From assembly GCA_949474265.1 (NCBI GenBank), contig CASXBC010000006.1, positions 1 to 53,931 of the forward strand: a stretch of 53,931 bases of DNA, written 5' to 3'. This DNA is from an uncultured bacterium. Its GTDB lineage: Bacteria > Bacillota > Clostridia > Christensenellales > UBA1242. The notes beneath the pieces are model-generated. The model saw only the letters and a list, made by a program, of their open reading frames with translations, was not told the DNA's origin and did not search any database. Positions 1 through 24,751 of the stretch are shown here, piece by piece. Position 1 is the first letter of the stretch. Each line of letters starts with the position of its first letter. The position numbers and the translations under genes were made by a program.

Positions 1-1
1 A

Positions 2-211
2 CACATTGCTGATACAGAAGATACGGTCAGAAAAACCGCTGAGATTTATCATCTTTCAAAGAGTACTGTGCATAATGATGTTTCAACTAGACTTCAAAAA
101 ATTGACAGTTCTATGTTTAAAGAAGTGCAAAAAGTGCTTCAGAAAAATTTTGCAGAGAAGCATATTCGTGGTGGTGAATCTACCAAACAAAAATATGGAA
201 GAGAAAAATAA
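2..211 (+). CDS. spoIIID: SpoIIID sporulation transcription factor, 3' part
   Basis: This is the C-terminal 69 residues of a gene running off the left edge, read in the frame beginning at base 2 and ending with TAA at 209-211. The translation holds a helix-turn-helix with the motif SKSTVHNDV, and ends with HIRGGESTKQKYG. Both match the SpoIIID family, whose usual C-terminus contains KSTVHKDL and H-x-RGGEAT-K-KY. SpoIIID is a small DNA-binding protein that adjusts sigma-E and sigma-K regulons in the mother cell during sporulation. It is followed by a long AT-rich hairpin terminator. A longer open frame beginning at base 6 is a shadow of this gene. The family call is firm; whether the organism really sporulates cannot be judged from this window. 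Confidence 0.93.
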   Translation, partial: HIADTEDTVRKTAEIYHLSKSTVHNDVSTRLQKIDSSMFKEVQKVLQKNFAEKHIRGGESTKQKYGREK

Positions 212-303: not shown

Positions 304-458
304 ATTTTAAAATAATTTAATTATTTTTTTATTAAATAATTTTTAATAGCGAAAATAGGGCTTTCTGAATTTTTTTAATAATTTATTTTTATTTAAAATT
401 AATTTATTTTTTATTTACAAAATCAAAAAAATAAATTTTTGTAAATTTTCGACAAAAT

Positions 459-488
459 TTGACTTTGGATATATAATTTATTTATAAT
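459..488 (+). promoter_or_regulatory. Sigma-A promoter of the giant lipoprotein gene
   Basis: TTGACT at 459-464 and TATAAT at 483-488 are separated by 18 nt. The predicted start is near base 495, giving a leader of about 44 nt. It is the only strong promoter in the gap, so it probably drives the 20.6-kb giant lipoprotein-radC transcript. Confidence 0.7.
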
Positions 489-501
489 ATATTATATAAA
501 A

Positions 502-519
502 ATCTGCCAGTTTGCAGAT
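502..519 (+). promoter_or_regulatory. 5' leader hairpin of the giant transcript
   Basis: ATCTGC (502-507) and GCAGAT (514-519) form a perfect 6-bp stem with loop CAGTTT, beginning only a few bases after the predicted transcript start and ending before the GGAGG ribosome site at 529-533. A stem at the 5' end can slow mRNA decay in Firmicutes. That role here is inference. Confidence 0.5.
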
Positions 520-538
520 ATTAAAATTGGAGGACACA

Positions 539-3500
539 ATGAAGAAATTTGCTTTGGGTATTCTTAGTGTTTTTATGATTTTGGGAGGAGTGCTTTTGTC
601 CGCTTGTGACAAAAAGGTTTCTCTTTCTTTATCCGAGACGGAGGTCGTGCTTTACACGAACTATGAGAATGGTGAAAACAATCAATCAAAGGAGATTGAA
701 GTTGATGTCAAGAATTCCAAGTCAGGCATAAATGTTGAAATTATGCACGGACAGGGCTGTGTAGACTTGGACCGTTCCAACACCTCAAAAACTAAAGCAA
801 ATGGAAAATATGCTTTTAAGATTTTGACAAAGCAAGACAAGAGCAGTGGTGTCGCTCAACTTAAAGTTTCTTCTGTTGAAGACTCAAAGCAATTTCAATA
901 CATAAATGTCACAGTAAATACTATCGTTGAAGAGATAAAGATTTCTGGTGAACATTCTCAAGACGGAAAGACAAATTTGTTTGTGGTTAAGGGCAATGAT
1001 AAAAAACTTGTAACCTCTGACTACTTTGACTTGCTTCCAATTTATGCAAACATAACAGATGTTGATTGGACATTTGAAAATGGTGAGAAACAACTTTTGA
1101 TTGATGGCAAGGTTTGTGCTGAGATTGATGGTTCAACTCTTAAGGTTTCAGAAGATTATAGTTTGAGAAAGATTGATGTTGTTGCAAGCTATGTTTTGAA
1201 CAAAGACATAAACAGAAAAGTGACTTTGGAAGTGCTTGAAAACTCAACAATACAAAATTACTCAGTAGATGACAAGATTTTCTATCGCAATGGTGTGCTT
1301 CAAACAACTCAAGCGACAGTGGCACTTAAGAGAAACAACTCAAACCTTTCTGTGGCTCAAGGTGTGCTTGTTTTTGATGTGGACTCTTCAAATGACCTTA
1401 AGCTTAAGCCGGTTGTCTATAAGAGAGATTCTGGAAAACTTGTTTTGATGGATAATGATGAATTTGAAAATTATTTCATCTTTGATTATTCAGAAAGAGA
1501 TGATGTGACTGCTGGGACAAAAACTTACAATTTCACTATTGATGCAATTGACAGCAGTGCAAAAAATATGTTTGGTCAATTTGAGGTTTATTTTGAAATT
1601 GAATATGCTGGTTATAATTACAGCGTGTCAACGAAAGATGCAAAACTTATTTTGGATATTACATATTCAGCTACACAAGTTGAGCTGACTGACAGTGAAG
1701 GCTACAGCATCAACAACACAAACCAAGATGTTTTCTCAAGTTATGAAAATGTTTTCGGTTATGAAGTGAACACTGTTATTGGACCAACAGATGTTGCAAT
1801 TGATGATAGATACTTCAGAATTACTTTTGATGTAACACAAGAAGCAGTGAGAAATCACAACATTTCTCTTGTTGACCCTGTTGGAGACCTTGCAACATTT
1901 TATACTTCAGATGGAAATGCTATTGAGTTTACTCGAAGTGCGACAGGCTCAAGCATATTTGTTTCTAGAGCACTTGAAACAGGCACAAAGATTTATGTCA
2001 AAGGGCAAGAAATCTTTGATGAGATTGAAAATATAGAATTTAAGTTTGAAGCGAGAAGCAATTCTTCTGTCAGCACGTCACTCTTCTTTACTTTCTACAA
2101 GATTGCTGAAGATAAGACTATGACTGTTTCTGGCACAGAAGAAAATCCACTTGAAAAAATCACATATCTTTCATCAAGTGTATATTCTGACAGAAAGATT
2201 GAATATGTTGTGAGAATTGATGGCATTTCAACTACTTCAGGGCTTTCATTAAACAGTGACAACACAAATCACTTTGAATATTCAAAACTTACTCTTTTGT
2301 CAAAGAGTGAAGAAACTGAAGAGGATAGTTTTGTTGTTGTTAGTTTTTCAGTTAATTTAACCTCATATAATTTTGCTGATGTTTCAAACTTCTGGTTTGA
2401 ACATATAACAGGAAAAAAATCAGAAGAGTTTGCAATTGAGACTTTTGTTCCTATAGAGTCTCTTACAATTCAAAACTCTGACAAATCCTCTGCAAATGTT
2501 TATGTAGATATGTCAGAAACTCAAGATTATATGCTTTTGAATGGTATGATTGATAGTGACGCATCAAAACATAGTTATTCGCTTTCAAACATCATGCTTG
2601 AGGCTGGCACAGCTCTTCCAATTTACACATCTGTGCAGAATGCTAGTTTGACTGCAAGTGGTATATCTTATAAATTTATGTCTTTTGACAACCTCAAACA
2701 ATATATTCGTGTTTGGACTGAAATTACAGATGATGCTGAGATAGAACGTAAAGCAAACGAAGTTGTTGCCAATGGCGATTTGAGTTTTATTGGAAATACA
2801 AATGCATTTATGTATTTCTTGGATATAAACCAAGTTCAAGATAATTATTTCTCAATCACGAAAGACAAACTTATTGTTTCAAACAGACCATTCAAAGGTT
2901 TTGTTGCTGTGCTTGCTGAGGGGTATAACGAAAACCATGAAGCTATCACACTTGTAAGATTTTTCGCTCTTGAGAGTTTTTATCCTGTAAGATACCTTTC
3001 ATCAAATGTAAGGACAACTCTTCTTTACACAGCTGATACTTTGAGTTTGAGTGACATTGCTAGGTCTTATGTTGATGTGTCAATCTCTATGAGACAAGAT
3101 GACAACATTCCTACTTATTCAAATTCACTCAGTTATTTCACATTCAGCTCTGCACTTCAAGAGTTTCATAATGTTACAGAAACAAACACTTTCTGGGGAA
3201 ACGATTTTTATTCAGTTTCAAACGTTTCACTTGTAAACAATGGCAAAAATTTGACTTTTAGGATTTCTGCAAAATCTACAAATTTGCAAACTTCAGTCAA
3301 AGATATGCTGAGAATAGTTTATAAAGATGAGCACGGCTTTGAAAAATCTGCTGAAATTCAAATTGAAATAAAAAATGTTAAGAGACTTGAGTCAGTTCAA
3401 TGGGTGAACCGTACTGCCGACAATGAGATTTATTTGAATCTTACAACGACCAACGAGAACGAGAAAAACTTTACTATTTCAACTTCAGTTGAGCCTAGTG

Positions 3501-6500: not shown

Positions 6501-9500
6501 CAGGAGTGTTCTACTTTAGACTTTATATTTCAAGTTCGTTTGCTTCAACAAGTGGTCTTAGACTTGTTGTGACTTTCTACAATGGCAATGAAGTTGTGAA
6601 AGAAGGAAGTCAAAATCTTACTGTTGACTATATGCAAGATGCTGTTATTCGTGTAAATGATGCTTCAACTTATTTGCTTTCAAAAGGTGAGACAGCAGAA
6701 GTTTCTGTAAGAATTGGACTTGACCAAGAACTCTATGATTTGTATTTGCAAAACAACGAATCAGGAATAAGCCTTTCAACTCCAACAGTTGAGATAGTTG
6801 GAAATTACAAAATATATAAAGCTCAAATCACAGCTGGAGTAAATGCAACTCTTGTTGGTGGGCAAGATAGCGGAATTTTCTATGTTTGTGCTTCAGTTGA
6901 AAGAGTGCTTAACAATGTTCAAGAAGTTAAGACAGTGCGAGCAACACTTTGCCTTGTTGATTTCTCTGTTGATGCAGATGGAATAAGTGTTGTGGGCAGT
7001 GGAAACAAGAGAGTTTATAACGGCAAGTCTTATGATGTGTTTAATGCGTATATCAATGACAGCTCTGAATTGCATTTCAATTATCCACTTTTGCCAGAAG
7101 ATTATAATTATGACAAAAATGATATAAATGCAGTTAATGCCATTGAAAGACTTATGGAAAAGAGAAATCAGTTCTTGACCAACAATTATTATAAAGATGA
7201 TGCTGTTAAATATTATATAAACTATAAACATGACTATGAAACAGGAAAGGACAATCCTATCACTCTTAAACAGCAACTTTGGTATGCAACTGATGAAACT
7301 CATTCTACTGCAATATATAATGAAAATAGAAACTCTATTGTGCAAAATGATTATTTCTCAGTAAGTGAACAATTGTTGATGGGGGATGCTTCAAGAATTA
7401 TGATTTCTGGCAAGCGTGCAGGAACTCAACTTATGAAGCTTCGTACAACAATAAATTATCAAGGGATTGAGCTTGTTTCAGACTATTACTTCTTGATTGT
7501 TGTTGAGGTTTGGACTGATGAAGAATCTCCAACTCAAATTACAACTGCAGAAGAGTTTATTGATTATGCTACAAACTCAGAAGAAGCAGGCGATTATATC
7601 TTGATGAATGATATTGTTCTTGCAGATTATACACCTGTTAGCACTTCTCTTATAAACAGCTTGGATGGAAATGGATTTACAATTCATATAAACAGCTTTA
7701 AGTATCCTGAGGGAAGCACTTTGAAGCTTGCTCTCTTTGATTCGGTTGAAAGCAACACGACTTTGAGAAATGTTAGGGTAAATCTTTATAATGGCGGACA
7801 AATTTCTGTAAACATTAAGCAATATACAAATGTTGAAATTGCAGGTTTTGCTCTTTCAAATGATGGTGTGATTTACAACTGTGAAGTGGTTTCTTATTAT
7901 GATGAAAAATATCAAGTTTCTAGAAATAACGGCAACAGTGGTTTGATTGTGAAATACACAAATGGTGCAAATTCTGACCCAATACCTCTTACTTATTCAA
8001 TGGGTGTTGAGAGTAAAGTTTCAGGCTTTGTAATTGAAAATGGTGCCTCTATCATGAACAGCCGTGTTGGCGGACAACAGTTTAAACACATTGTGCAAAT
8101 TGACAACACAAATTATCTTAAGTCACAAAATCTTGACGTTTTCTACTTGGAAGGACAAGGACAGGTCTCTGGATTTGTAAATACAAATGCTGGTTATGTA
8201 AGTGCTTGTTTTGTCAAGAATATTCAAATTGACAACATTATGGAATATGACGGCTCAATCACTTCTGGTTTTGTTATTACAAACAACAATAGTGTCCAAA
8301 ACAGTTATGTTGAAGGGCTTGGCGGTGCAACAGAAACAGTGGGTGATGAGACAAAAGAAATCGTTTGGAACAATCTTACAAACATTTCTTCTTTGGGTGT
8401 GATTTCAGGTTTTGTTTATGAAAACACTTCATTAGTAAAAAATTCTTATGCAAATATTGCAATTGAAAACTCAAAGACAAAAGGTGCAATGGTTGCTGGT
8501 TTTGTTTATAAAAACAACGAAGGTGCAGAAGTTACTCTTTGCTATGCTGCTTGTGAGATTGCAAAGAAAGATATTACACAAATGCAGTTCTCTGGAGTTG
8601 ATGACTTTACAAACTCACTGAACAAAGGGACAATTTCATTGAGCTATTTCTATAATGATAGTCGTACAGATGACACAATTCAATCAAGAGTTTCAACAAG
8701 TGCTCTTTCTGTGCATGATGTTGATAAGAAAAATTCATTCTATGGATTTAGCTTCTCATCAGGTGAAGGTGCTTATGATGGAATTTGGCAAATGAGCGAC
8801 AGTGGCAGAATTTCTCTTGTTAGTGCAAATCAAATTGCTTTGTCAAATCGTTATGCAACTACAAATGGAAAAGTTGTAAGTATTTTCTACAGCAGAAGCA
8901 TAAGAGATGTTGATACTCTTAGTTATGTTGACCTTTCTTATGGAAGTGCTGCAAATCCTATTATTTTGAGAAATGCAATTGATTTTGCTAAAGCGACAGG
9001 GAAAGCGACTTCAACTGAAGTTTCTTCTTATAAAGAATATTACACAGATACAGAAGTTTCTGGAAGATATAGAATTGTAAACAACATAGAGATGACAGAT
9101 ATTGCTCAAGATGCTGAGGATGAAGGCTCTGTAAAACTTACTACAGCAAAGAAAACCTTTAGGGGACTTTTGGATGGTAATGGATTTACCATTTCAAACA
9201 TCAGTCTTGGAAGCAGTGAGTTGGTTGAAAACTTTGGACTTTTTGCAAGGCTTGACAATGCTGTGATTATGAACCTTGACCTTACAGTTGAGTCTGTTCA
9301 TAATACTCAAGCAAACATAGTTGGTGTGCTTGCAGGCACGGCAGTTGATTCAAGAATTCTTGCAATTAAACTCTCTCCTGCAGGGACTTCAAATGAAGGA
9401 CAAAGTACTGCGGTGCAAGGACACAATGTTGTTGGTGGTGTCGTTGGTATGATGTTTGGTGAAAGCTATTTGAGTGACATCAATGTTTCAAATGTTGACG

Positions 9501-12500
9501 TTTCTTCAGAAGGCTTTACCGAAGGAAAGAAGATTGATGCAAACAAACTTTATATTGAGGGCAATGAAGATGAAACAATCAAGAGTTTGAGAAATCTTGT
9601 TGAACTTCTTGATAATGGAATTGGACTTAAATCCAATGTTGAAAAATTGTCTTACGCTGGAGCTATTGCTGGTTTTGTTGATACTTATTCAAACAAAGAT
9701 GAGGGCTTTGTATCATTTTCAAACACTCTTGAAGTTGGAGATTATGATATTGTTACAGTCAAAGTTTCAAACTCAGTAAATATTTATGCCGAAGTGTCAG
9801 GTGGTATCTTTGGTTATGTTGGAAAGTCAACTCTTATTTATGATGCTAGTATTTCTATCAATCAAAACACTGCTCTTTCAACACAAGGAGCGTCTCCATC
9901 TTATATCATCTCTAAAAACCTCTTTGCAGGTGGTTTGATTGGAGAAAACTATGGTGGATTGTTTGCTGTTTCTGCAACTTATGAAGATAAATTGCAAAAG
10001 CAAATTGAAGAGGGAGAAAACTCATATTATTCAAATCCTGGGGACAGTGAACGTGGTCAGATGTCTATCTTCTCTTATACTCCAAATGATGAAGGATATT
10101 TGACAAGAACAAACAAACCTCGTTTTGTTGGTGGACTTGTTGGTTATATGGGTGGTGGTTATATCTATGTTGGTATCAGCAAACTCAACACTATCTCAAA
10201 CACAGATGCTGTTGTTGGTGGTGTGGTTGGACTTGCTGGTGGCATAGGCAACAAATATGACTTGACCTTTACTACTCAAAGAAAACCTATCAACACGCTT
10301 TATTATGAAGTTTATGCTTCTGGGGATGCTTATTCAAAAGATAGCGTTGCTGGTGGTATTATTGGTGCAGTTGAGTCAACTGTCAATGCTTCTTCAATCA
10401 TTGCTATGAAGAATGTTATGGCTATGAATTATTATTCATACTCAGGAATGTCTCTTACTGCAGACAATGCGTCACCTAAGGACAATTCAAACACTTATTT
10501 GAGTGATAAGCATTTTATGTTGGCTGGAGGTATCTTCTCAAAAGAAGAAGATAAACTTAAGCCAAATGATGACAAAACAAGACTTCTTTCAGATTTCTAT
10601 TTGATAAATTCTGTTAATGACTTTGCATTGAATTTGAAAGATGGCACTACTGCAGCGGCAGAAATCGGTTCTTATACCGTTGGTGGTTATAAGACTATTC
10701 TTATGGGAAGTGTTGAAGCAAAATTGGAGCCAATTGGCTTCTTCAGTCCAGCAGAAACCATAATGAAAGATTCAAAATATGTCATTGATTCAACTATTGT
10801 TTCAGCTCAGCATATTGGAGATGAGGACCTCAAAGCAATGACTAGTGCTTATGCTAGAATGAAAAACTACTTTATCTCTAATGGCTGGGATGAGAAATAT
10901 TGGACTCACGAACAGAACAGACTCTTCCCAAGTATTGTGCTTTTGCCTAAAGTTACAATAGATTTTTGGGATGTTGACAACACTAAAGATATTTTGGAAA
11001 AAATGAAAAATGATGCTTCTGGAACTATTGTTGTCAGAGGAAGGTTGTTGCATGATGATGAAAATTGTTTAGACAGACAGGACATCAACCTGACTCCATC
11101 AAATCCAGATTATGAAAGTTTTAAGTCGCTTTTGACAGTTGATAGTTTTAGAGGAAGATTGGTTTCTTATGAGTCTTATATGAACACTCAAGAAGGTGGA
11201 AAGATAACCCAAACTGTTCAAGGAGGCGGTGACAGAGATGAAAAAGTCGGCATAATTTTAAGCCAATCTCTGTTTGAAAGTCTCAAAGGAAATGCTTCAA
11301 TTGAAGGTCTGAATTTCTATATGACTCCACAAGCGAAACAAGGCAACAAATATGGCTTTAGTCTTATATCAAAAGAGGCAGAGACGGCTTTCTTAAGAAA
11401 TGTAAATATCATTATTAATGAAGATTTTGTGATTAAGTCTGAAGGAGAAACTTACATTCATTATGATGATGGAAAATATGAGTCAATTGGACTTATTGCA
11501 GGTCTTGCAACTTCAACCTCATTCTACAATGTCAACATAAAGTTGAGAGGGGATGCTGATATTAAATTTGTTGGAGATTTGGTTGATAACAAGTCTTATA
11601 TGGGACTTTTGGCTGGAAACATTAGACAAAAATCAGCCCAATCTCAAATGTCAATCAGAGAAATTAACATTGAAAGAGTGAGACTTCAAAATCAAAGTGA
11701 AGCAACTCAAATAAGCGAAAAGCCAATAAACATTACATTTAGTCCAAAAGGCAATGTTTCGTCAACTGAAAGTGAGTTGTTTGCAGGTATTTATTCTGGA
11801 GCTATTTCAAAGAGTACCGGTTCAGCTGCAGTTTCTGTTGGAGTGAGACAAGTAAATGATATTAATTTAAATATTGAAAAATTTGAAGACAATAATGATG
11901 GCAGACTTAAAAAAGTTTCTATTGGTGGATATTTTGGTGCATTAAATGGTGCTGATAAAGTGGAACTTGTTGAAGGCGAAGATGATGATGCAGATGGCAC
12001 AGGCATTACTATAAATCAAAAATGCAATATCCAAGAAATTTCTGCAGGGCTTGCTTTCGGACAAACAAATTCTGCTTTCCAATTTGCTTTTGATAAAGCG
12101 ATAAATGCTTGGATGATTGGTAGAGTGATTCAATATGATGCTTTTGATGTTGAAAGAGCAAGAATAGGAAGTGTTGTTGGTGAATCTAATGAGAGTATTA
12201 CTATCACAGGACTTCGTGTCAAGTTTGATGTTTCTAAGAAAGCAATGTATCCTACTGATGAAAGAACTCCATTAGAAGATGCTATTAAAGCATTTAAAGA
12301 AAAAGCAGAAACCATTTCTCAAAATAGCTACTCTTATGACAACATAGTAAAACCATTTGCTGTGACAGACAACTCAAGTTCTAATAAAGATAATGCAATA
12401 GGTGGAGTTGTTGGTTTTGCTCGTGGCGGAAGCTCAATTAGTATTAGTGGCTCTACAAGTTTGTCTGGAAACTTGTTTGTTTCTGGGTCAAAGGACAGCA

Positions 12501-15500
12501 ATGCTTCAAGTGGTTACCTTTCTGTCGGAGGAATGGTAGGAAAATACTTTGGTTCAAATAATATTTCTGTTGGTGGAAATGTTTTAAATAATATAAGCAT
12601 TTTTGCAAATGTTGCAAATGTCAATGTTGGTGGAGTTATAGGTGATTTCGGTGGAGAAACTGCTGGTGGAGTTTCAAGTAAACTTGAAATTGGAGAAGTT
12701 AGTTCATCTACTTATTCAGTGCAATACAATGGACAAATAGTTGTTTCAAATGCGTCATCAATCAATTTTGGTGGTGCTGTTGGAAGACTTAATTTGACAC
12801 AAGACACAAATGTAAATGCTAGAGGTATAATAAAAAATTATGCTTTTGGTGGTGCAATCAAAGTTTTGGTGAAAGACCAAGCAAGTGCAAATGTTGGTGG
12901 TCTTGTTGGTACAATGGGTGTTGCAGAAAAGCAAACAAATGTTTCTATTGAAAATTCAATTGCCTATGGCGATGCCTTTATGATTTATACAAATGAAAAA
13001 ACATTTTATACTGAAGCAATAAAATATAATTCTTATAATTTTGGTGGAATTGTAGCAAATGCTCAAAATGGTCTAAAGGTTGAAAATTGCAAATCATTAT
13101 TTACAAACTTTAACAGTGGAAATTTGAATTCAAATAGTTCTGGAAATATTGGTGCTATTGTTGGCGGAAATGCTGAACTTGCTGATTGCAGGGGCAATAA
13201 ATATTCTTCTGGTGTAGTTATGACAATTCAAGAAGAAGAAGGAAATGTGGATATGGGCTATGGAGTAGGCAATTTTGCTGGTTATACAACGGTAACAGGA
13301 GCAGAAGCGGATGCTACTGTACAATTACAAGGCGATATTCTTGATAACTTAGGTAATTTGGGAAATGAAATTAGAGAGGGACATAAACTTAAACCATTTA
13401 AGATTTCTTCAAAATATTCTCAAAGACTTGATGATAATAACACCAAAATTGAAGGAAGTTCAAATAATATAAAATGGGTAGCAATCACTGCAGATAGTCT
13501 TACAGAAGATAATAAGCTTACAGATGTGCTTGCGGACAATTTGACAAATATGGCAATTGTAGGCAATGGTAGGGTTGTTGAAAGGGAAATAATAAATCAA
13601 GAAGATGTTAAGGAGGATACTAACGCAGTTTACTTAGGTGGGCTTGTAAATAAAATGGGTTTGAAATATAGTGATGATGAAGGTATAATTACACCAAATT
13701 TCAATCTTATTTCAGGTATGATTGTAGACCTTAACATATCACACAATATCACACATGATGGTGGGAATGGTACTAAAACAAATGCTTTTGGTGGCCTTGT
13801 AGGTTTATCAAATGGAAATTCTTTCATCTATGGTGTTGGAGTTAAGGGAGACTTGTCTGTAGGTGGAAATACTCAGATTTGGCTTGGTGGACTAGTTGGT
13901 CAAGCACAACAAATCAGAATAGAACAATGCTATATTGATGCAGACATCTCTTATAGAGGATTGGAAAGTGGGGGATGTGTTTCTGGAATTGCAAATTTAA
14001 GAAATTTTAATTCAACTATTAAAACATCCTATTCCTCTGGAAAAATTGTTTCTTATGTTAATGCTCCTATTTATACTTTTGCAAGTGCAAATAAAAGTCA
14101 AGACAGCCAGAATGTTCATATGATGATTTCAGATTGCTATTCAATTATGCAAGTAGAAAGAAACAATGTCTTAGATGCTACTGCAACTTCAAGCATAATA
14201 TCAAACATATATTTTATGGGTGCTAGTGCTACAAAAGGGGCTGGACAAGTTATTAATGGAACTGCAGATGTTATTCAATTTCAGCAAGGCACAGTAGATA
14301 CTGATGAAACAAAATATGTTGAAAGTTCTAGCTTGGCTTTATCATACAGTAATGAAAATAAGTTTAAAGGTGCTGGAATAAAAGCAAATGATGACTATGA
14401 AGAAAAAAACGACTCAACAACTGAAGGGGGAGTTGTAACAAAATCAATAGAGTCCAAGATTTTAGGTGAGAATACTTGGTATTTCTCGAGACTTACAAAC
14501 TATGGGTATGCATCACATGGGTTTGGCTATTTAAAAAATTCAACAACTTACATTTGTGAATTAGTTGCTGATACTGAATATGAATATACTCCGGTTCCTT
14601 ATAGTATATTGATTGGTGAATCAACTGCTGGTGTAAAAAATGAAGAGAATTTCGCTCATGGTATTGGTGAAAATAAAAAAGAATGGTATCTTGGCGTTCC
14701 AAGCGTTGGAAAATTTGACCAAATGCTTGATACTGTTAATCCAGATAATGCTTTATCTGATAATCCTTTGTATAATAGAAACTTCAAATTTGTATTGAGG
14801 TATGGTTTCTCTATTGAAAAATCTAACAAAGTTGACGAAGGTGTATATAGAGTTTCAAGTGTGGGTGTAGATGGAAAAGGCTTTGTTTTTGATGGTGGAG
14901 ACAATACAATTGATTTTTCTGGTATAACGATGACCACAGGTGTATTTAATGAAGTTTACGGAACAATCAGAAATTTGAGAATCAATAATACAAATATTAC
15001 AACCTCTGAAGAAAGTGTTGGAACTTTAGCAGCAAAGGTGATTATAGGAAATATTGAAAATATTACAGCAATAGGTAAAATAGATATTAATACAAATTCT
15101 GAAACTAAATATGCTGGTGGAGTTGTTGGTGAATTGTTAAACGGCAGTGCAAAAAGTGTTGAAAGTCTTGTAAATATTAATAATATTACTGATAAAGCTC
15201 CTAATATGATAATTGGCGGTGTAATTGGAAAACTCGGCGATGAAGGTGGAATAATAGGAACAATTAATACGGCATCTAATATAGGTATATTGCAAAATTC
15301 TCCTTCAAGTACATATGGAAACTTAACGGTAAAGACTCTTAAACTTGGCGACGGTACAAGCATAAGAGAAGGGGATACTCAGATTCTTTCAGCGGTGACA
15401 GGTGGAATTGTTGGTTATGTTGAAAATGGTGATATTTTCAATTCATATAACGCAAATTCAGTTTTAAGTAATTTTGCAAAAAATAAAACGACAGGTAATG

Positions 15501-18500
15501 CTCTTAATGCTGTTTCAGGTGGAATTGTTGGCTATGCAAAGGAGGCGACAATTAATAATTCTCATAATGTTTCACTCGTGGGTGCAGGAAATTATGGAAA
15601 CGCAGATAAAGTTTCTTATGCAGGTGGAATTATTGGATATGGCGTTGATGTTGGTATTAATGGATGTATAAATGATGGACCTGTTCAGGCTCTTGGTAAA
15701 CAGGATAGAGATTATAAAGTTACAACAAAGTTTCTTTTAGATGGTGAAAAACAGCGTTCAACTGAAGATTATCAAAAGGATCCAGCTGACATTTTATTAA
15801 AAATTACAATGACATATAACCCTGGAGATTACAGGCTTGTCAATGCGTATGGCTTGGGATATTTGGCAACAGGAAGTGTAGACAACTCACAAGTCATAAA
15901 AGAAGAAAGCAAATCTACAACAAATAATATTAAAAATGACGGAAATATTGGAGAAATTATTACCACAAGTTATTTGCGTTTCAATAGGAAACAGATGCTT
16001 GATGGAGATGGAGATGGTGGAACAGGAGGTAATTATGAGGCGTTATTCTCCACAGAGATAAATGCTGTCGTTGATTCAAGTTTTGATAATGCAAAACTAA
16101 AAATTAGCGGAGTTGATTCGTATGGTTTTCCAACAAGAGTTTATGGAGAGGATGAGATAACAAGAAAACTTGTTGATGACAATGAATATGTTAAGTTTCT
16201 TAAATCTAGAACTGGTGCAGATAATCAAGGTAGTCATAAGATAAGCAGATATGGTGGTTTTTGGAATTCTTATCAGCATACTTATGGTGCTATTGTAGAT
16301 ACAAAATTTGAGAATGGAACAATAAGTTTGAATGTGGAAGAAGGAAATGAAGAGACTCAAAGAAATCATTTAAATGTTGCTTGGGCAAGTATTAAAAAAC
16401 AGGTTATTAGCAAATTGGTTAATTTTAATCTTGCAGCACATACTACATACTATTCATCTTCCATCCTTTCTGTTTTTTGGGGAAATAAGTATTTAAACTT
16501 TGATGGTTACGATTCTATACTTGCTCATTTTAATACATTTACTTACTTTAAAGGAACCTCTCCTTCTTCTGAACTTTTGGTTGATAAGACAAACAGTGTT
16601 GTCACATCAAATTCTTCATATAGTGCAGATAAAACATTGAAGCAATGTATTGATGAAAAAATTGCTGAAATTGATAAGCTAATTGAAAACAATGGAGAAG
16701 GTTCATTGGATGTGATTGATGTTGCTGGTGAAAAAGTGGCTGTTGCAAGCAGTTTTACCAACTTCAAAACTGCTCTTACTCCAAACTCAGTTTCTGCTGG
16801 AAAAATTGAGTTTACACTTCCTAATGATATTAATGCAAAGACTATAACTAGAGAGAATATAGTATTTAAAGATTGTGAGTATGTTGAATATGATATTTTG
16901 GCAAAAGACGAGCGAACATTGGAAATTACTGGAAAAAATAAGCAAGGATATGCAATGATTTATTTTGCTACTCCAGGAGAACATAATATTAAGATTTCGC
17001 TTAGCGTTCAAAGCAATATAAATTCATTCAATATTACTAAGAATAATTCACAATACGTAAGTGAAAGACAAGAATTGACAGTATATTTATCTGCATTTGA
17101 TGATGAGGCTCAAAAGAAATTACTTAATGAATTTGATGAAGGTAAATATGAAATAGATTCTGCCACAGTAGGGGAACAAACAAATTTACATGCATACCTT
17201 AGCAATTCAAAAAATGAAATTGTTATTGAAGGTGTTTCTGAAGAGCCAAATGGGGAAAATTTGACTATTAATCTTATTTGTAATAGAGAACTTACACAAG
17301 AAGGTGTATTTATTGCTAACAATAATAGGACCATTTATCGTCATAGGCAAATTGCTGGAAGTTCAAACAATGATTTTAAATTTACATACAAAAACTATAG
17401 AGAAGTTTCAATGAGTAGAGCAATGCCAACTCTTGCCAACTTTACGGAAAATAGTGGCACATATACAATAAGTTACGAAAACTTTATTTCTGCATTAGGA
17501 ATGGACAAAGCAAAAGTGTTTGCTTTTGAAGTAGATGGCATTTCATTCTATTGGGATGGACAGTCAGCTATGCAAGTTGGTGGTAATAAAGCCAATGTAT
17601 TAGTTAGTGCTGATGGTGCGAATATAAGAATAAGCGGTAGTGGGGCAAGTTCGTTTATTCAAAACGCTTCTTCAATTGCTACAACTGCTTATGTAATAAT
17701 TGCAAATAATGAGGCATTGATTATTGGTACAAAAGCTGGACACACAAATCCAAGTGGATTTGGTACAATTAATGAAGCTTTTGAAGATGTTAATTCCGGA
17801 ATAAAATTTGACTATATTAGATTTGTTGGTAACACACAAAGAGAAATAGACAACTTTATTTTGTCAGACAACTACTATGGCGGATATAATGGAACTAATA
17901 TCAATTTCGCTGACGAGACATCTAGAGATGGAGTTGAGGTATCGTCTCCTATAAGTTCAATTTCTGGAATTAAGCTTAAATCAATTGATGTAACTTTTAC
18001 TTATTCATTCAAAGCAACATTGGATAGTAGTAGGATTGATGTTGAACATGCTTTAGAATTGAATATAATTAGGGGTGGAAATCTTATTGAGACTAGATAC
18101 TTTGGAGGAACATTAACAGATAAAGCCGATGAACCTTATGATTTAAATGTAAAATTGGGAGATGTTGTAGAACTTAAAGTATCTATAACAAAATTAAATG
18201 GTAATGGTGAAATTTTAGAAATTGCTAATTTAGAAAGTGACAGTTTGGATTTGCAGATTTCAGGATTTAATTCAGATGATGAATTTTATGAATATGCTGT
18301 TGAACAGGGTAATGAAACTATTTTTTCAAAATCAATGAATTTTGTTTCTACTAAAAAATTATATTATGATAACTCAAAAGATGCTGATTTTTATGAATAT
18401 AAAATTTGGGAAGATGGTACGGTAGAGATATTTATTGGAACATTAAAATCAGATTCAAAAAAACCTAATATAAAAAATAGATATATCTATTTGCCATCAG

Positions 18501-20311
18501 ATATTTTAGGAAAAAGCTCTGGTTATTATAGATATGATTCAAATGCCAATGATAACTATAGATTTGAGGAAATTAATATAGGCGTTTGGAATAACGCTAA
18601 ATCCAATTTTGAAAAAATTTCTTTAGGGTTCAAAGGAAATAACCTGTGGCTTATTGATTGTAATTCAAATCAAAACGGTTTAGATTTCGGTGTTTTGGCA
18701 GAATATAAATACATAGAAAGTAATAATGACAGTGCAGAGCTTAAGTTACTCGAAGGAAATGAAGAACATTTTGAAATTGAATGTAATGATATTGGCGTAA
18801 AGATAGGTGAAAGCACAGAGAAAGAGAACTTGGAAATTGGTAATTCTAAAATATATTATAATGGACCACAAGGTCAAATGGTAGAAAGTGGACCTTCTTA
18901 TACATTTGAAGAAGTTGGTAATTATACGGAAGTATATTGGAAAGGAGAAGTTGTATTAGACTTAAAGAAAGAGGCTTCTGAAGGTGATTCAAAAAATCTA
19001 AATGATGTGACAACAATTTTACTTAATGCTGATATAGATATGGGAACTGATAATATTGTGACCATGTCAAAAAATATCATTGGATGTAATTATATAATAA
19101 GATTTGTTGGAAATTTTTCAGCTCCATTTAGTCAAATTGGAGAAGAACAGGGGCATGGAAACATTCGTAATATCATATTTGCAGGTATGAATTCAAATGC
19201 TTCAAATTTGTTAGCGAATAAAATAGTTAAAGATACCAAAAATGTTCAAATTTATGGGACAATGAGAAATATTAGTTATAGTAAAGGAGAAATTATACCG
19301 ATTTATAATTCAATTTTAAACAATGTAACAGTTGTCGGATTGAATGCGGATAGTGGTTATAATGTGACTACAAAGATTACTGCAACAAAAAAAGAAACTG
19401 ATACATTGATTCTGCTTGGCGGTAATGCAGTGAAAGGTGCAAATGCAAAAAGTACTTATAATAGAATTGATTATTCAAAAATAAATGATGGAAGCTCAAT
19501 AGATACTAATGTTATATCAAGTCCTATGTTGAGTGCAGAAAAAAGTTGGACGGTTTCAACTTATAATGAATATAAATATAAGCTTAATGGTGTTGCAGGA
19601 GGAACGGGAGGAATTGTTAATTGTGATAATAATTCAACGAGTATTTGTCTTTCTGGTTTTTCATCAATTGGTGGCTATGGTGGTGATGGTGCACATGGAA
19701 CATTTAATGGCAATCGTACTTTAGGTGGAGGAAAAGCTGGAGAAGCAGGCAAAGAAGCTGAAAGTGGCGAGTTCCGTAATGGAAAAATAAATCAGTATAA
19801 TGGTAATTCTGGAATAGGTGGCTTTGGAAGAATTGTTAAAAATGATTATAATGAAAGATTTTCAATGATAAGTTCTGCAAATGGTGGTAATAAATATTAT
19901 TTTGGTTCTTGTGGAACTTCGTCAATTAGTTGGAAAGGCGGTAAGTCTGATATGGGTTGGGACTGTTTCTTTGGGGCAAAACTAAGCAAATTTTGTTTTA
20001 ATAAGGGAGTTAACTACGATAACAAGGATTATTCAGATATTGAAAACACAAAAAGTGCCATTAAAGGTGGTTTGACAACTGTAATTAATGAAAGTTCTAA
20101 ATATTCTTTTGGCTTTATGAGTGGAAGCTCGGATATTGGTAATAAAGTTTGGATTTCACAAATTTACACTTATGTTGATATGAGTATTTATTATGGACCT
20201 TGCGGACCTTATGCAATTAAGGAAGCAGATAAAAACACCTATAAGATTTCTTGGACTAGTGGTGAGACGGTGAATGGTGCTGGTGGGTTTACTGCTTGCA
20301 GTAATGCCTAA
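539..20311 (+). CDS. Giant Ig-like/GLUG beta-helix surface lipoprotein (6590 aa)
   Basis: The start is ATG 539, with GGAGG at 529-533 five bases before it. An in-frame TTG at 512 lies upstream of the ribosome site and is rejected. The signal peptide ends in lipobox L-S-A-C with the lipidated Cys at residue 23, so the protein should be anchored outside the membrane. The mature protein alternates beta-rich Ig-like regions (about 24-1100 and 1500-2320) with beta-helix blocks. Those blocks begin with a recurring motif: NPI-x-(I/L)-x2-A, then Y-x-(I/V)-(N/D)-DI, then LDGNGFTI, near residues 2330 and 2800. More than 20 GLUG-type motifs such as GGLVGENNG follow. Further blocks start near 3470, 4730 and 6140. 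Residues about 6350-6440 are glycine-rich (GGYGGDGAHG, GGKAGEAGKEAE). There is no LPXTG, SLH or C-terminal membrane segment. No enzymatic domain was recognised; adhesion or a matrix role is inference. A RadC-like gene follows after 15 nt. Confidence 0.93.
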   Translation: MKKFALGILSVFMILGGVLLSACDKKVSLSLSETEVVLYTNYENGENNQSKEIEVDVKNSKSGINVEIMHGQGCVDLDRSNTSKTKANGKYAFKILTKQDKSSGVAQLKVSSVEDSKQFQYINVTVNTIVEEIKISGEHSQDGKTNLFVVKGNDKKLVTSDYFDLLPIYANITDVDWTFENGEKQLLIDGKVCAEIDGSTLKVSEDYSLRKIDVVASYVLNKDINRKVTLEVLENSTIQNYSVDDKIFYRNGVLQTTQATVALKRNNSNLSVAQGVLVFDVDSSNDLKLKPVVYKRDSGKLVLMDNDEFENYFIFDYSERDDVTAGTKTYNFTIDAIDSSAKNMFGQFEVYFEIEYAGYNYSVSTKDAKLILDITYSATQVELTDSEGYSINNTNQDVFSSYENVFGYEVNTVIGPTDVAIDDRYFRITFDVTQEAVRNHNISLVDPVGDLATFYTSDGNAIEFTRSATGSSIFVSRALETGTKIYVKGQEIFDEIENIEFKFEARSNSSVSTSLFFTFYKIAEDKTMTVSGTEENPLEKITYLSSSVYSDRKIEYVVRIDGISTTSGLSLNSDNTNHFEYSKLTLLSKSEETEEDSFVVVSFSVNLTSYNFADVSNFWFEHITGKKSEEFAIETFVPIESLTIQNSDKSSANVYVDMSETQDYMLLNGMIDSDASKHSYSLSNIMLEAGTALPIYTSVQNASLTASGISYKFMSFDNLKQYIRVWTEITDDAEIERKANEVVANGDLSFIGNTNAFMYFLDINQVQDNYFSITKDKLIVSNRPFKGFVAVLAEGYNENHEAITLVRFFALESFYPVRYLSSNVRTTLLYTADTLSLSDIARSYVDVSISMRQDDNIPTYSNSLSYFTFSSALQEFHNVTETNTFWGNDFYSVSNVSLVNNGKNLTFRISAKSTNLQTSVKDMLRIVYKDEHGFEKSAEIQIEIKNVKRLESVQWVNRTADNEIYLNLTTTNENEKNFTISTSVEPSDANDIGLTSVYVATSGSASDIKISTSSVGQIFNVNINTTKGGRGNLYLLPNDMIKSVNGYNHILVYKYIENEDGTITEVPINIPLSDLASRYDEIISGSEEISNYFYNNDGEKVYYENIILKIAITIADGSSEGTAIRVYNQGDLEEIDYAKYYRVMNDITLSGWKAYERFSGMIYGNNGGVTLKFTNNSESFVNSLSGTLKDLTFVGDVEVTTSANAGFIANTVELTGSIENCDVDVYYINTTNSYYGSKLKTNAPQNAGMIAGLNSGTIKNVRVYGGSIEASSVFVGGLVGENNGLIENAGFEFYKFENERQNVNTINAVGTFGGLVGVAGGTSVVKKAYIYAYALPNIVAGEGDEQVSDYSTSNIITADIVRVFAGSASNGARFSESFGFIGDVFEAFSTSGTDQRVTLENCYISYGLADGSVYSDIFKNVTYSFVNGQGKPDAGSANGWITMTAPDNEEDNSNLTYLSLDENIWNLEKTNTEINFGYVYLKNIAQSTAIELNDVHVEELKEEHNSTYRVLNSGKRIVDGLEYETGVLFMYNPVVQITDVQEKATLDRLNSISIASLFGISNEQAKSLLLTSESKNIMLSTDSIRLTNTTVKDFEVSVHSKMDFTQVKTFRFMILNTLPTLSTMIDGISIKNNQTVLLQTSSSRTLVYSTLSSLYLSGTTQYALNKDEFTINHAFADSSDGADFVNVIRSSNSLVLSGLKKHENDNRTTISTTLSHNALSADADYANYAEVINDKIGRAFDVRVYNGAKKLEITNANNLIVRPSEYATFDVVLESDEQSDGLVFALNYDNVELEAKEMDGYVRFDVDSNLALDVSWGLLSTTPVGNAVQNRYKVLVKVSEDKKHLVDNDYSSLVLSVNALSQVSNNTYLRNISIKVETQKIEDFSISTYSIERRQIRNSILYLTPSSQMLNAMSPATDAIVSVAVTPEYAQMTHFTLTYEVSGNAVGTVGISKLAYNSLFGYYANSNSSIIITNGIRVNLTEADKTGTGVFYFRLYISSSFASTSGLRLVVTFYNGNEVVKEGSQNLTVDYMQDAVIRVNDASTYLLSKGETAEVSVRIGLDQELYDLYLQNNESGISLSTPTVEIVGNYKIYKAQITAGVNATLVGGQDSGIFYVCASVERVLNNVQEVKTVRATLCLVDFSVDADGISVVGSGNKRVYNGKSYDVFNAYINDSSELHFNYPLLPEDYNYDKNDINAVNAIERLMEKRNQFLTNNYYKDDAVKYYINYKHDYETGKDNPITLKQQLWYATDETHSTAIYNENRNSIVQNDYFSVSEQLLMGDASRIMISGKRAGTQLMKLRTTINYQGIELVSDYYFLIVVEVWTDEESPTQITTAEEFIDYATNSEEAGDYILMNDIVLADYTPVSTSLINSLDGNGFTIHINSFKYPEGSTLKLALFDSVESNTTLRNVRVNLYNGGQISVNIKQYTNVEIAGFALSNDGVIYNCEVVSYYDEKYQVSRNNGNSGLIVKYTNGANSDPIPLTYSMGVESKVSGFVIENGASIMNSRVGGQQFKHIVQIDNTNYLKSQNLDVFYLEGQGQVSGFVNTNAGYVSACFVKNIQIDNIMEYDGSITSGFVITNNNSVQNSYVEGLGGATETVGDETKEIVWNNLTNISSLGVISGFVYENTSLVKNSYANIAIENSKTKGAMVAGFVYKNNEGAEVTLCYAACEIAKKDITQMQFSGVDDFTNSLNKGTISLSYFYNDSRTDDTIQSRVSTSALSVHDVDKKNSFYGFSFSSGEGAYDGIWQMSDSGRISLVSANQIALSNRYATTNGKVVSIFYSRSIRDVDTLSYVDLSYGSAANPIILRNAIDFAKATGKATSTEVSSYKEYYTDTEVSGRYRIVNNIEMTDIAQDAEDEGSVKLTTAKKTFRGLLDGNGFTISNISLGSSELVENFGLFARLDNAVIMNLDLTVESVHNTQANIVGVLAGTAVDSRILAIKLSPAGTSNEGQSTAVQGHNVVGGVVGMMFGESYLSDINVSNVDVSSEGFTEGKKIDANKLYIEGNEDETIKSLRNLVELLDNGIGLKSNVEKLSYAGAIAGFVDTYSNKDEGFVSFSNTLEVGDYDIVTVKVSNSVNIYAEVSGGIFGYVGKSTLIYDASISINQNTALSTQGASPSYIISKNLFAGGLIGENYGGLFAVSATYEDKLQKQIEEGENSYYSNPGDSERGQMSIFSYTPNDEGYLTRTNKPRFVGGLVGYMGGGYIYVGISKLNTISNTDAVVGGVVGLAGGIGNKYDLTFTTQRKPINTLYYEVYASGDAYSKDSVAGGIIGAVESTVNASSIIAMKNVMAMNYYSYSGMSLTADNASPKDNSNTYLSDKHFMLAGGIFSKEEDKLKPNDDKTRLLSDFYLINSVNDFALNLKDGTTAAAEIGSYTVGGYKTILMGSVEAKLEPIGFFSPAETIMKDSKYVIDSTIVSAQHIGDEDLKAMTSAYARMKNYFISNGWDEKYWTHEQNRLFPSIVLLPKVTIDFWDVDNTKDILEKMKNDASGTIVVRGRLLHDDENCLDRQDINLTPSNPDYESFKSLLTVDSFRGRLVSYESYMNTQEGGKITQTVQGGGDRDEKVGIILSQSLFESLKGNASIEGLNFYMTPQAKQGNKYGFSLISKEAETAFLRNVNIIINEDFVIKSEGETYIHYDDGKYESIGLIAGLATSTSFYNVNIKLRGDADIKFVGDLVDNKSYMGLLAGNIRQKSAQSQMSIREINIERVRLQNQSEATQISEKPINITFSPKGNVSSTESELFAGIYSGAISKSTGSAAVSVGVRQVNDINLNIEKFEDNNDGRLKKVSIGGYFGALNGADKVELVEGEDDDADGTGITINQKCNIQEISAGLAFGQTNSAFQFAFDKAINAWMIGRVIQYDAFDVERARIGSVVGESNESITITGLRVKFDVSKKAMYPTDERTPLEDAIKAFKEKAETISQNSYSYDNIVKPFAVTDNSSSNKDNAIGGVVGFARGGSSISISGSTSLSGNLFVSGSKDSNASSGYLSVGGMVGKYFGSNNISVGGNVLNNISIFANVANVNVGGVIGDFGGETAGGVSSKLEIGEVSSSTYSVQYNGQIVVSNASSINFGGAVGRLNLTQDTNVNARGIIKNYAFGGAIKVLVKDQASANVGGLVGTMGVAEKQTNVSIENSIAYGDAFMIYTNEKTFYTEAIKYNSYNFGGIVANAQNGLKVENCKSLFTNFNSGNLNSNSSGNIGAIVGGNAELADCRGNKYSSGVVMTIQEEEGNVDMGYGVGNFAGYTTVTGAEADATVQLQGDILDNLGNLGNEIREGHKLKPFKISSKYSQRLDDNNTKIEGSSNNIKWVAITADSLTEDNKLTDVLADNLTNMAIVGNGRVVEREIINQEDVKEDTNAVYLGGLVNKMGLKYSDDEGIITPNFNLISGMIVDLNISHNITHDGGNGTKTNAFGGLVGLSNGNSFIYGVGVKGDLSVGGNTQIWLGGLVGQAQQIRIEQCYIDADISYRGLESGGCVSGIANLRNFNSTIKTSYSSGKIVSYVNAPIYTFASANKSQDSQNVHMMISDCYSIMQVERNNVLDATATSSIISNIYFMGASATKGAGQVINGTADVIQFQQGTVDTDETKYVESSSLALSYSNENKFKGAGIKANDDYEEKNDSTTEGGVVTKSIESKILGENTWYFSRLTNYGYASHGFGYLKNSTTYICELVADTEYEYTPVPYSILIGESTAGVKNEENFAHGIGENKKEWYLGVPSVGKFDQMLDTVNPDNALSDNPLYNRNFKFVLRYGFSIEKSNKVDEGVYRVSSVGVDGKGFVFDGGDNTIDFSGITMTTGVFNEVYGTIRNLRINNTNITTSEESVGTLAAKVIIGNIENITAIGKIDINTNSETKYAGGVVGELLNGSAKSVESLVNINNITDKAPNMIIGGVIGKLGDEGGIIGTINTASNIGILQNSPSSTYGNLTVKTLKLGDGTSIREGDTQILSAVTGGIVGYVENGDIFNSYNANSVLSNFAKNKTTGNALNAVSGGIVGYAKEATINNSHNVSLVGAGNYGNADKVSYAGGIIGYGVDVGINGCINDGPVQALGKQDRDYKVTTKFLLDGEKQRSTEDYQKDPADILLKITMTYNPGDYRLVNAYGLGYLATGSVDNSQVIKEESKSTTNNIKNDGNIGEIITTSYLRFNRKQMLDGDGDGGTGGNYEALFSTEINAVVDSSFDNAKLKISGVDSYGFPTRVYGEDEITRKLVDDNEYVKFLKSRTGADNQGSHKISRYGGFWNSYQHTYGAIVDTKFENGTISLNVEEGNEETQRNHLNVAWASIKKQVISKLVNFNLAAHTTYYSSSILSVFWGNKYLNFDGYDSILAHFNTFTYFKGTSPSSELLVDKTNSVVTSNSSYSADKTLKQCIDEKIAEIDKLIENNGEGSLDVIDVAGEKVAVASSFTNFKTALTPNSVSAGKIEFTLPNDINAKTITRENIVFKDCEYVEYDILAKDERTLEITGKNKQGYAMIYFATPGEHNIKISLSVQSNINSFNITKNNSQYVSERQELTVYLSAFDDEAQKKLLNEFDEGKYEIDSATVGEQTNLHAYLSNSKNEIVIEGVSEEPNGENLTINLICNRELTQEGVFIANNNRTIYRHRQIAGSSNNDFKFTYKNYREVSMSRAMPTLANFTENSGTYTISYENFISALGMDKAKVFAFEVDGISFYWDGQSAMQVGGNKANVLVSADGANIRISGSGASSFIQNASSIATTAYVIIANNEALIIGTKAGHTNPSGFGTINEAFEDVNSGIKFDYIRFVGNTQREIDNFILSDNYYGGYNGTNINFADETSRDGVEVSSPISSISGIKLKSIDVTFTYSFKATLDSSRIDVEHALELNIIRGGNLIETRYFGGTLTDKADEPYDLNVKLGDVVELKVSITKLNGNGEILEIANLESDSLDLQISGFNSDDEFYEYAVEQGNETIFSKSMNFVSTKKLYYDNSKDADFYEYKIWEDGTVEIFIGTLKSDSKKPNIKNRYIYLPSDILGKSSGYYRYDSNANDNYRFEEINIGVWNNAKSNFEKISLGFKGNNLWLIDCNSNQNGLDFGVLAEYKYIESNNDSAELKLLEGNEEHFEIECNDIGVKIGESTEKENLEIGNSKIYYNGPQGQMVESGPSYTFEEVGNYTEVYWKGEVVLDLKKEASEGDSKNLNDVTTILLNADIDMGTDNIVTMSKNIIGCNYIIRFVGNFSAPFSQIGEEQGHGNIRNIIFAGMNSNASNLLANKIVKDTKNVQIYGTMRNISYSKGEIIPIYNSILNNVTVVGLNADSGYNVTTKITATKKETDTLILLGGNAVKGANAKSTYNRIDYSKINDGSSIDTNVISSPMLSAEKSWTVSTYNEYKYKLNGVAGGTGGIVNCDNNSTSICLSGFSSIGGYGGDGAHGTFNGNRTLGGGKAGEAGKEAESGEFRNGKINQYNGNSGIGGFGRIVKNDYNERFSMISSANGGNKYYFGSCGTSSISWKGGKSDMGWDCFFGAKLSKFCFNKGVNYDNKDYSDIENTKSAIKGGLTTVINESSKYSFGFMSGSSDIGNKVWISQIYTYVDMSIYYGPCGPYAIKEADKNTYKISWTSGETVNGAGGFTACSNA

Positions 20312-20326
20312 TAAACGGAGGATGAG

Positions 20327-21073
20327 ATGAAGAAAGAAGTTGAGAAAAATATACATGAAGGACACAGAGAAAGGTTGGTCAGTTTGGCTGTTAATGCTGG
20401 GGTTGATGCAATGAGTGATGTGCAACTTGTGGAATTTTTCTTGACTTACATTTTCCCTCGTGGTGATGTCAATCCACTTGCTCACAGGCTTCTCAATAAG
20501 TTTGAAACCTTTACCCAAATCATCGAGGCAAATAAAAATGATTTAATCTCTGTTGAAGGAATTAATGAAAGGTCTGCAAACAAAATATCTTTGTTTAAAG
20601 AATTGTTTTATGCTTTTACAACAGCCAAGATGGGCAGAAAGTTTGTGGTAAAATGCAGAGCTGATATTATTGCGGTCGTTGAAGATTGTCTTAGATTTAG
20701 GACCACCGAAAACATGGTGCTTCTAGCACTTAGTGCCAGCAACATCATAACTCATAGAAGGCAATTTTGTGAAAACAACTCAGGCAGGGTTTCCATTTCA
20801 ATTATGGAGCTTACTACCTTTCTTGCTTCTTCCAAGCCAGCTTCAATTGTTGTTGCTCATTGTCATCCCTTTGGAAAGGCAATGCCATCAGAAAGTGATG
20901 ATGAGGGCTTTAAGTTGGCGTCTGATGTTTGTCATACTTGTGGAGTGAATCTTATTGATTCTTACATAGTTGGCGAAGAAGGTGTTTACAGTCAAAAAGA
21001 AGAAAAGCTGGTAAGAAGATATTATGATGTTGAAGAGCTTAAAGATGCTTTTAAGGACATTAGTTTTCAATAA
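20327..21073 (+). CDS. RadC-like JAB/MPN-domain protein, copy 1
   Basis: This 248-aa protein has an N-terminal helix-hairpin-helix-like segment (VEGINERSANKI, near 70-82) and a C-terminal JAB/MPN+ domain. The metal-binding pattern H-x-H-x7-S-x2-D is complete at H178, H180, S188 and D191, although the usual HxHPSG reads HCHPFG. RadC-family proteins are widespread and often lie next to mobile or accessory genes, and their biochemical role is unsettled. ATG 20327 has GGAGG at 20317-20321 and lies 15 nt after the giant lipoprotein stop with no terminator between, so the two are probably co-transcribed. A paralogue at 30398-31123 has the same motif at the same residue numbers. DNA binding or metallo-hydrolase activity is inferred from the family. 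Confidence 0.85.
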   Translation: MKKEVEKNIHEGHRERLVSLAVNAGVDAMSDVQLVEFFLTYIFPRGDVNPLAHRLLNKFETFTQIIEANKNDLISVEGINERSANKISLFKELFYAFTTAKMGRKFVVKCRADIIAVVEDCLRFRTTENMVLLALSASNIITHRRQFCENNSGRVSISIMELTTFLASSKPASIVVAHCHPFGKAMPSESDDEGFKLASDVCHTCGVNLIDSYIVGEEGVYSQKEEKLVRRYYDVEELKDAFKDISFQ

Positions 21074-24734: not shown

Positions 24735-24751
24735 TTATAGTGAGGAAAAAC

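Follow-up and report, generated by a model that had tools for sequence, protein, structure and literature searches.

The 53,931-nucleotide stretch of DNA analysed here (the window) encodes an uninterrupted 6,590-residue lipoprotein, giant A, which is a core gene of its genus (37 of 37 genomes, its own included) and is also present in nine sampled genomes of six sister genera. We favour, with somewhat better than even confidence, the interpretation that giant A is an attachment fibre anchored by a lipid, in which the base stays constant and the tip changes, and it would then be expressed, exposed at the cell surface, fibre-shaped and able to bind a target. The features on which this interpretation draws are as follows (all on the + strand).

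449..488 (+), two overlapping sigma-A-type promoter-like sites of giant A, from sequence scoring
502..523 (+), 5' UTR element TTTGCAGATATTA (511-523) with an inverted repeat, from motif comparison with orthologs
529..533 (+), ribosome site GGAGG ahead of the ATG at 539, from sequence
539..20311 (+), giant A, 6,590-aa lipoprotein gene, uninterrupted frame with homologs in relatives
539..607 (+), lipoprotein signal peptide and lipobox, residues 1-23, from sequence
608..10888 (+), conserved "base" half, residues 24-3450, largely colinear with giant B, with low dN/dS and higher identity
3689..5038 (+), putative first beta-helix-like block, residues ~1051-1500, from profile relation and motifs at 1276 and 1313
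7136..10438 (+), modelled part, residues 2200-3300, mainly beta, from AlphaFold2 and Foldseek
11339..18958 (+), faster-evolving distal half, residues 3601-6140, from dN/dS
18989..19438 (+), better-aligned island ahead of the tip, residues 6151-6300, identity 0.19-0.23, gaps 0.03-0.07
19589..19858 (+), glycine-motif end, residues 6351-6440, from motifs and glycine lag-3 periodicity
20327..21073 (+), RadC-like gene adjoining giant A and not part of the fibre, PF04002, 5e-16
35488..38184 (+), VirB4/TraG-type ATPase gene upstream of giant B, PF19044, 2.7e-18
38258..48619 (+), giant B, 3,453-aa lipoprotein with its own lipobox, paralog of the first half of giant A, from hhalign

Giant A is an unbroken reading frame conserved throughout its genus

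Read from the ATG at 539, giant A has a predicted mass of 720.6 kDa and a pI of 4.7; the mechanical start of the frame is an upstream in-frame TTG at 512, and the stop is at 20311. The original prediction of one uninterrupted giant gene was confirmed by this frame and by unbroken homologous frames in relatives, which span about 5,000-7,800 aa in the genus and sister genera. A search of 61 genomes with the first 1,153 residues found giant A in 34, namely its own genome and 33 of 36 others of the same genus; all 24 genomes representing other families of the same order gave no match. The remaining three genus members were recovered with a profile of residues 2200-3300 (A1). Twenty-four of the 34 matches are open from stop to stop over 6,059-7,702 aa, and nine are shorter (1,243-5,704 aa), six of these running off the contig start. 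A 30,488-aa frame in G028 was discarded as an artefact made of N bases. Because independent assemblies carry the giant A frame, it is very unlikely that an assembly artefact is its source.

In a 297-genome sample of the order, 22 genomes of the same family matched at E <= 2.2e-72 (13 of the own genus, counting the own genome, and nine from six sister genera), and 106 genomes outside the family matched, none better than 2e-17. Since the genomes listed as lacking a match, in order of kinship, start outside the family, we infer that 22 of 22 family genomes in the sample carry a homolog. The sister-genus copies are homologs and candidate orthologs (the G126 copy that was read stands elsewhere). 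A scan of public genomes yielded 173 stretches encoding a relative; the best 80 of the 173 come from MAG or bin contigs whose titles name Clostridia, Clostridiales, Eubacteriales, Christensenella or Firmicutes, and several of these 80 bear deer-gut sample names. The order may contain such giant proteins more widely, and we noted 7,393- and 8,009-aa frames with weak local A1-profile matches in two genomes of other families (G110, contig C4; G206, contig C9). The presence of giant A in every genus member searched contrasts with giant genes reported as strain-specific in the available part of PMC11573180.

Expression signals and membrane anchoring of giant A

As to the ribosome site and promoter of the original prediction, GGAGG precedes the start codon, and the two promoter-like sites, TCGACA-N17-TATAAT at 449-477 and TTGACT-N18-TATAAT at 459-488, are both near consensus. 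All 24 giant A upstream regions scored have a best-scoring promoter-like site with its -10 box 37-98 nt 5' of the start (G034 was left out as too short at a contig end, and the start of G023 was placed 18 nt early). No more than 6 of 200 Markov shuffles reached the same score in 23 of these regions; the exception was G036, where 39 of 200 scored equally well. The 5' UTR also contains an inverted repeat, ATCTGC (502-507) and GCAGAT (514-519). A 13-base element, TTTGCARATATTA, recurs there with <=2 mismatches and at near-fixed spacing in 12 of 24 giant A orthologs, compared with a maximum of 2 of 24 in 300 mononucleotide shuffles; with GGAGG behind it, the element occurs at a single place in the own genome, 5' of giant A. 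Sigma-A-type sites in 24 of 24 regions favour activity during growth over a role confined to spores, and giant A is probably expressed from a promoter of its own in growing cells.

The signal peptide ends in LSAC, with Cys23 as the lipobox cysteine, and this cysteine recurs in each of the 17 relatives whose complete protein was read (18 of 18 with the window protein), in agreement with the clean lipobox described originally. The lipoprotein signal peptidase LspA (signal peptidase II) is encoded in 13 of 13 genus genomes, and sortase in 1 of 13, the own genome having none. LPxTG is absent from 18 giant A orthologs, in line with the earlier claim that there is no wall anchor beyond the lipid. 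Lipid attachment of giant A is predicted on Cys23.

The base of giant A is shared with a shorter paralog and evolves more slowly than the distal half

Five in-order hhalign matches relate giant A to giant B: A 1-300 with B 1-300 (97.1%), A 1051-1350 with B 1051-1350 (98.6%), A 1651-1950 with B 1801-2100 (96.8%), A 2251-2550 with B 2401-2700 (99.5%) and A 2701-3000 with B 2851-3150 (99.8%), where the giant B alignment held six sequences, two of them cut. Because some repeats also pair outside this order (A 1051-1350 with B 2401-2700, 98.2%), the case for colinearity is carried by the set as a whole and by the first 300 residues, which lie outside the repeats. Giant B thus corresponds to the base of giant A with the distal half missing. 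The two genes share a contig in the window, G015, G025, G010, G171 and G064, and occupy separate contigs in G001, G029, G195, G250 and G013.

In G015, G025, G010, G064 and G171, the immediate upstream neighbour of giant B is a gene that looks VirB4-like by eye. The distance from the VirB4-type gene to giant B ranges from an overlap (first start in G010) to 111 nt (G171) and is 73 nt in the window. Of five giant B upstream regions examined, none has a promoter-like site that beats chance, and giant B is probably co-transcribed with the VirB4-type ATPase gene. An rpoB-like gene (by eye) follows giant B in the window, G010 and G064. VirD4 (PF02534) was found in 15 of 16 genus genomes searched; together, VirB4-type and VirD4 genes are unusual baggage for a 1-Mb genome.

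Selection along giant A changes close to where homology with giant B ends. Between G034 and G035, which are 80% identical, dN/dS was 0.067-0.110 in six 600-codon pieces up to residue 3600 and 0.246-0.405 in six pieces beyond it (Nei-Gojobori, own script; one pair, with synonymous sites partly saturated). Identity to the window protein is likewise higher over residues 1-3450 than over residues 3601-6140 in 17 of 17 relatives. The higher distal dN/dS could reflect relaxed constraint.

Giant A is predicted to be rich in beta-helix-like repeats

The original prediction described alternating Ig-like and GLUG beta-helix blocks and proposed Pfam searches and structure predictions slice by slice. Ten overlapping slices of giant A gave no Pfam or NCBIfam family over cut-off, with weak scattered matches in NCBIfam. 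The best GLUG (PF07581) score was 11.7 bits against a cut-off of 20.5, and the GLUG-family label was rejected on this score; the best sub-threshold Pfam match was to DUF7679 (20.6 versus 27). Within residues 2200-3300, GLUG reached E <= 0.1 in 2 of 18 orthologs (best 0.0024). No Ig-like Pfam family exceeded its cut-off in the window protein either; the Ig-like matches were weak and confined to single members (Ig_NUP210_15th 0.00051, Cadherin 0.098, Big_3_2 0.073). Both terms are best read as resemblances in giant A. Searches by sequence against solved structures found no match for the stretches tried, A2 giving two non-significant ones, and PHROG gave weak single-member matches at E 0.015 or worse.

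For residues 2200-3300, AlphaFold2 with 18 sequences returned a confident model (pLDDT 82.6, pTM 0.80) that is mainly beta with some helices. The top Foldseek match of this model was the IgA1 protease 7uvk (E 2.7e-3, probability 1.00, TM 0.16), followed by PL6 alginate lyase and then phage tailspikes. None reached E <= 0.001; the first five, with weak E values and low TM (<= 0.16 by query length), are all beta-helix-containing proteins. For this part of the protein, we favour a small beta-sandwich followed by a right-handed beta-helix, which would agree with the beta-helix of the original layout; these residues are the part of the chain over which the alternating layout was tested.

Repeats of this kind seem to extend beyond the modelled part. 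The motif GG[ILVAF][VIAF]G occurs 20 times in giant A (mean 0.33, maximum 3 in 500 shuffles), in blocks at 1276-1313, 2966-3272, 3955-4120, 4418-4450 and 4860-5029. By hhalign, the block at residues 1051-1500 is related to A 2251-2550 and B 1051-1350, and A 3001-3300 is related to A 3751-4200 and A 4801-5100. The distal half may contain further beta-helix-like repeats up to about residue 5250.

On the minus strand of contig C4, the own genome encodes a third giant protein (6,192 aa), which starts like a signal peptide and has a membrane segment and a basic tail at its C-end. Flg_new (List_Bact_rpt) is over cut-off in this protein, and GLUG and MBG_2 slices fall just below; GLUG scores 26.9 bits in the C4 giant and 20.4 as a slice (cut-off 20.5).

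Giant A ends in a glycine-periodic domain

Residues 6351-6440 of the window protein hold GGTGG, GGYGGDG, GGGKAGEAG and GIGGFG, with variable segments between them. Across giant A proteins, end motifs such as GGNGGNGGNG, GGGAGG and GNGGIGGFG alternate with segments that vary in length and sequence; the motifs are weak in G009 and G001. The end domain contains 316 glycine pairs at lag 3 versus 150 +/- 9 after shuffling (z 17.9, a value overstated by the use of 20 related sequences), and lag 6 gives z 6.7. The set comprised the window protein and 19 relatives, its segments were picked for glycine content, and the shuffle allows for that content and not for relatedness. Among the control regions, glycine pairing was strongest at lag 4 in residues 2200-3300 (z 12.4, compared with z 3.1 at lag 3), and no lag exceeded z 3 in residues 25-1000. 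The richest 60-residue glycine window starts in the last 8% of 17 of 18 full-length proteins, G009 being the exception. Glycine is often well kept in proteins generally; over the last 700-800 residues of three pairs, the fractions kept were 0.73 for glycine versus 0.62 for other residues, 0.70 versus 0.41, and 0.59 versus 0.24. The low proline content of whole giant A proteins (1.3-2.0%) speaks against a collagen reading. By analogy, the end domain may adopt a polyglycine-II-like fold.

The glycine tip is absent from five of five complete C-ends of other genera (G126, G240, G320, G302 and G218; the C-end of G271 is cut by a contig end) and also from giants B and C4. G218 has 18 glycines in 60 residues, within a GLUG-like stretch 710 residues from its end. 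The lack of a tip in these other genera implies that the family-wide role of the base does not need it. A phage or mobile origin was rejected: the end domain of one ortholog found no match by tblastn against phage records, and none of 66 pattern matches to residues 2200-3300 in viral contigs was confirmed as a relative.

Missing from the original prediction were the promoter-like sites of relatives, the genus-wide presence of giant A, the paralog giant B at 38258-48619, the split between a conserved base and a variable distal half, the glycine-periodic end, and the contrast in the genus between rare sortase and universal signal peptidase II (1 versus 13 of 13 genomes).

The host probably belongs to a lineage with reduced genomes

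The own genome is 1.11 Mb, within a genus range of 0.7-1.5 Mb. The ATP synthase a-subunit (ATP-synt_A) was found in 0 of 16 genus genomes and is also missing in 5 of 9 other families, and glucose-6-phosphate isomerase was found in 1 of 16 genus genomes, with a stop inside, versus 9 of 9 other families. UBA1242 of the Christensenellales has been described as having small genomes, with 1 Mb stressed, and as lacking ATP synthase and glucose-6-phosphate isomerase (PMC12306168). That study also found sporulation genes, which it calls unexpected, and proposes that these bacteria live as symbionts or parasites; it describes dependence on a partner, which is not named, and the absence of biosynthesis pathways and of standard sugar, amino acid and peptide transporters (PMC12306168). 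The gene content found here, Spo0A_C included, and the small genome probably fit this description of UBA1242, with the own 1.11 Mb exceeding the 1 Mb stressed there. The host bacterium is probably gut-living.

Giant A as a candidate attachment fibre

In the attachment-fibre interpretation, the lipid on Cys23 would hold giant A in the cytoplasmic membrane, and a constant base of ~3,450 residues, built of a beta-sandwich and beta-helix blocks, would span the wall and beyond. The faster-evolving beta-rich shaft would come after the base, and the chain would end in a polyglycine-II-like tip whose variable loops may bind a partner surface, either a gut microbe or host mucus. From domain sizes, we estimate that such a fibre would measure roughly 0.1-0.2 micrometre. 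Giant B, with the same base and lacking the extra half, would be a shorter companion. An adhesin was among the options of the original prediction and matches this favoured interpretation; no sequence family supports adhesion in giant A. If the interpretation is true, giant A would be the arm that holds these cells to a partner. If the lineage is UBA1242, the separable fibre end would offer a handle, with the end domain alone serving as bait for the partner. A more specific proposal, which we regard as possible but unlikely, is that a reduced, partner-dependent family keeps a giant lipid-anchored fibre as a core organelle with a constant base, that in this genus the tip has converged on the phage polyglycine-II receptor-binding design and its variants choose the partner cell that is held, and that giant B with the VirB4-type ATPase couples contact to a transfer machine.

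Giants A and B may instead form a passive coat or a wall-spanning scaffold that protects or shapes the cell with no specific binding. This alternative accounts for the base being the best conserved part, found through the sampled family and common to two lipoprotein paralogs; for the presence of the base without the tip in sister genera; and for lipid anchoring as a main route in a genus where 12 of 13 genomes have no sortase. It gives no reason to expect a distinct glycine-motif end containing variable segments, or a selection split near residue 3600, and we consider it possible but unlikely. Still less probable is that giant A is a spore or sporulation protein. By eye, window positions 1-211 resemble the end of SpoIIID, and an M23/SpoIIQ-like gene lies upstream of giant A in 10 of 17 relatives; moreover, Spo0A_C was detected in 13 of 13 genus genomes, though G005 and G011 yielded nothing longer than short frames. 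Yet giant A has its own sigma-A-type promoter-like sites in every region scored, and the gene stays in relatives that do not have the upstream M23-like gene, such as G003 and G021.

We find it slightly harder still to credit that giant A is a secreted or tethered enzyme resembling an IgA1 protease or a polysaccharide lyase, which is what its top fold matches are. M26 IgA1 proteases have an HExxH zinc site, and HExxH is absent in 18 of 18 giant A orthologs; nor did any catalytic Pfam or NCBIfam family exceed its cut-off in the ten slices, so that the original statement that no catalytic domain is recognisable stands. Bacterial enzymes commonly use a beta-helix scaffold, and the top match 7uvk, the metallo-IgA1 protease of G. 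haemolysans, has a beta-helix domain, according to the available part of PMC9637739; giant A differs from it in having neither HExxH nor a protease family.

The attachment-fibre interpretation has parallels in known systems. As described in the available text of PMC12863079, Giant1-5 of Apilactobacillus kunkeei are extracellular proteins of 3,000-8,000 aa in a small genome, with beta-solenoid domains and paralogs, and are proposed adhesins; giant A shares the size range, the small genome and the paralogy and is a candidate for the other traits. They differ in that the solenoid is N-terminal, alpha-helical repeats make up most of the rod of Giant1-3, and DUF5776 or SH3b-like domains occupy the C-end (PMC12863079, same text), whereas giant A has a lipobox, is mainly beta where modelled and has a glycine-motif end. 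The words "lipoprotein" and "glycine" do not occur in the available text of PMC12863079. The gp38 tail-fibre adhesins of phages S16 and PP01 combine a beta-helix with a polyglycine-II sandwich and hypervariable receptor loops (PMC6851490 and PMC12892980, available parts), and the likeness to giant A lies in glycine motifs between variable segments at the far end, attached in giant A to a putative fibre with a predicted beta-helix. It is a likeness of design only, as there is no detectable sequence relation and gp38 is a separate phage protein. Giant frames of Omnitrophota, Patescibacteria and further symbionts with reduced genomes resemble giant A in being very large, in a proposed role in attachment and, probably, in belonging to reduced, partner-dependent bacteria, and the giants of Velamenicoccia are called poorly conserved (PMC10066038, available part), in contrast to giant A with its 37 of 37 genus genomes. 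The open-access titles and abstract beginnings listed under the terms used describe no giant lipoprotein in this lineage. Giant adhesin-like proteins are already on record; the apparent novelty here is one that is a lipoprotein, occurs across a genus, has a short paralog and ends in phage-like glycine motifs.

Other genes of the window

The RadC-like, VirB4/TraG-type, PRC-barrel and transglutaminase-like genes of the window pass Pfam cut-offs, and MFS_1 falls just below; UvrB, UvrA, RpoB, SpoIIID, SpoIIQ, M23 and the RadC and VirB4 genes of relatives were named by eye. In a survey of 17 relatives (G028 was left out for its N bases), a RadC-like gene adjoins giant A in 13, the others being G034, G009, G001 and, at a contig end, G021, and a UvrB-like gene lies within the stretch examined in 11. 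The adjacent small proteins encoded at 24740-25327 and 25337-25882 have no Pfam match and appear by eye to be mutual paralogs. The gene at 30398-31123 (-) is RadC-like by eye; its product and that of 20327-21073 (+) have similar starts (GHRERL..., VEFFLTYIFPRGDVNPLAHRLL), and the two genes flank the UvrB- and UvrA-like genes.
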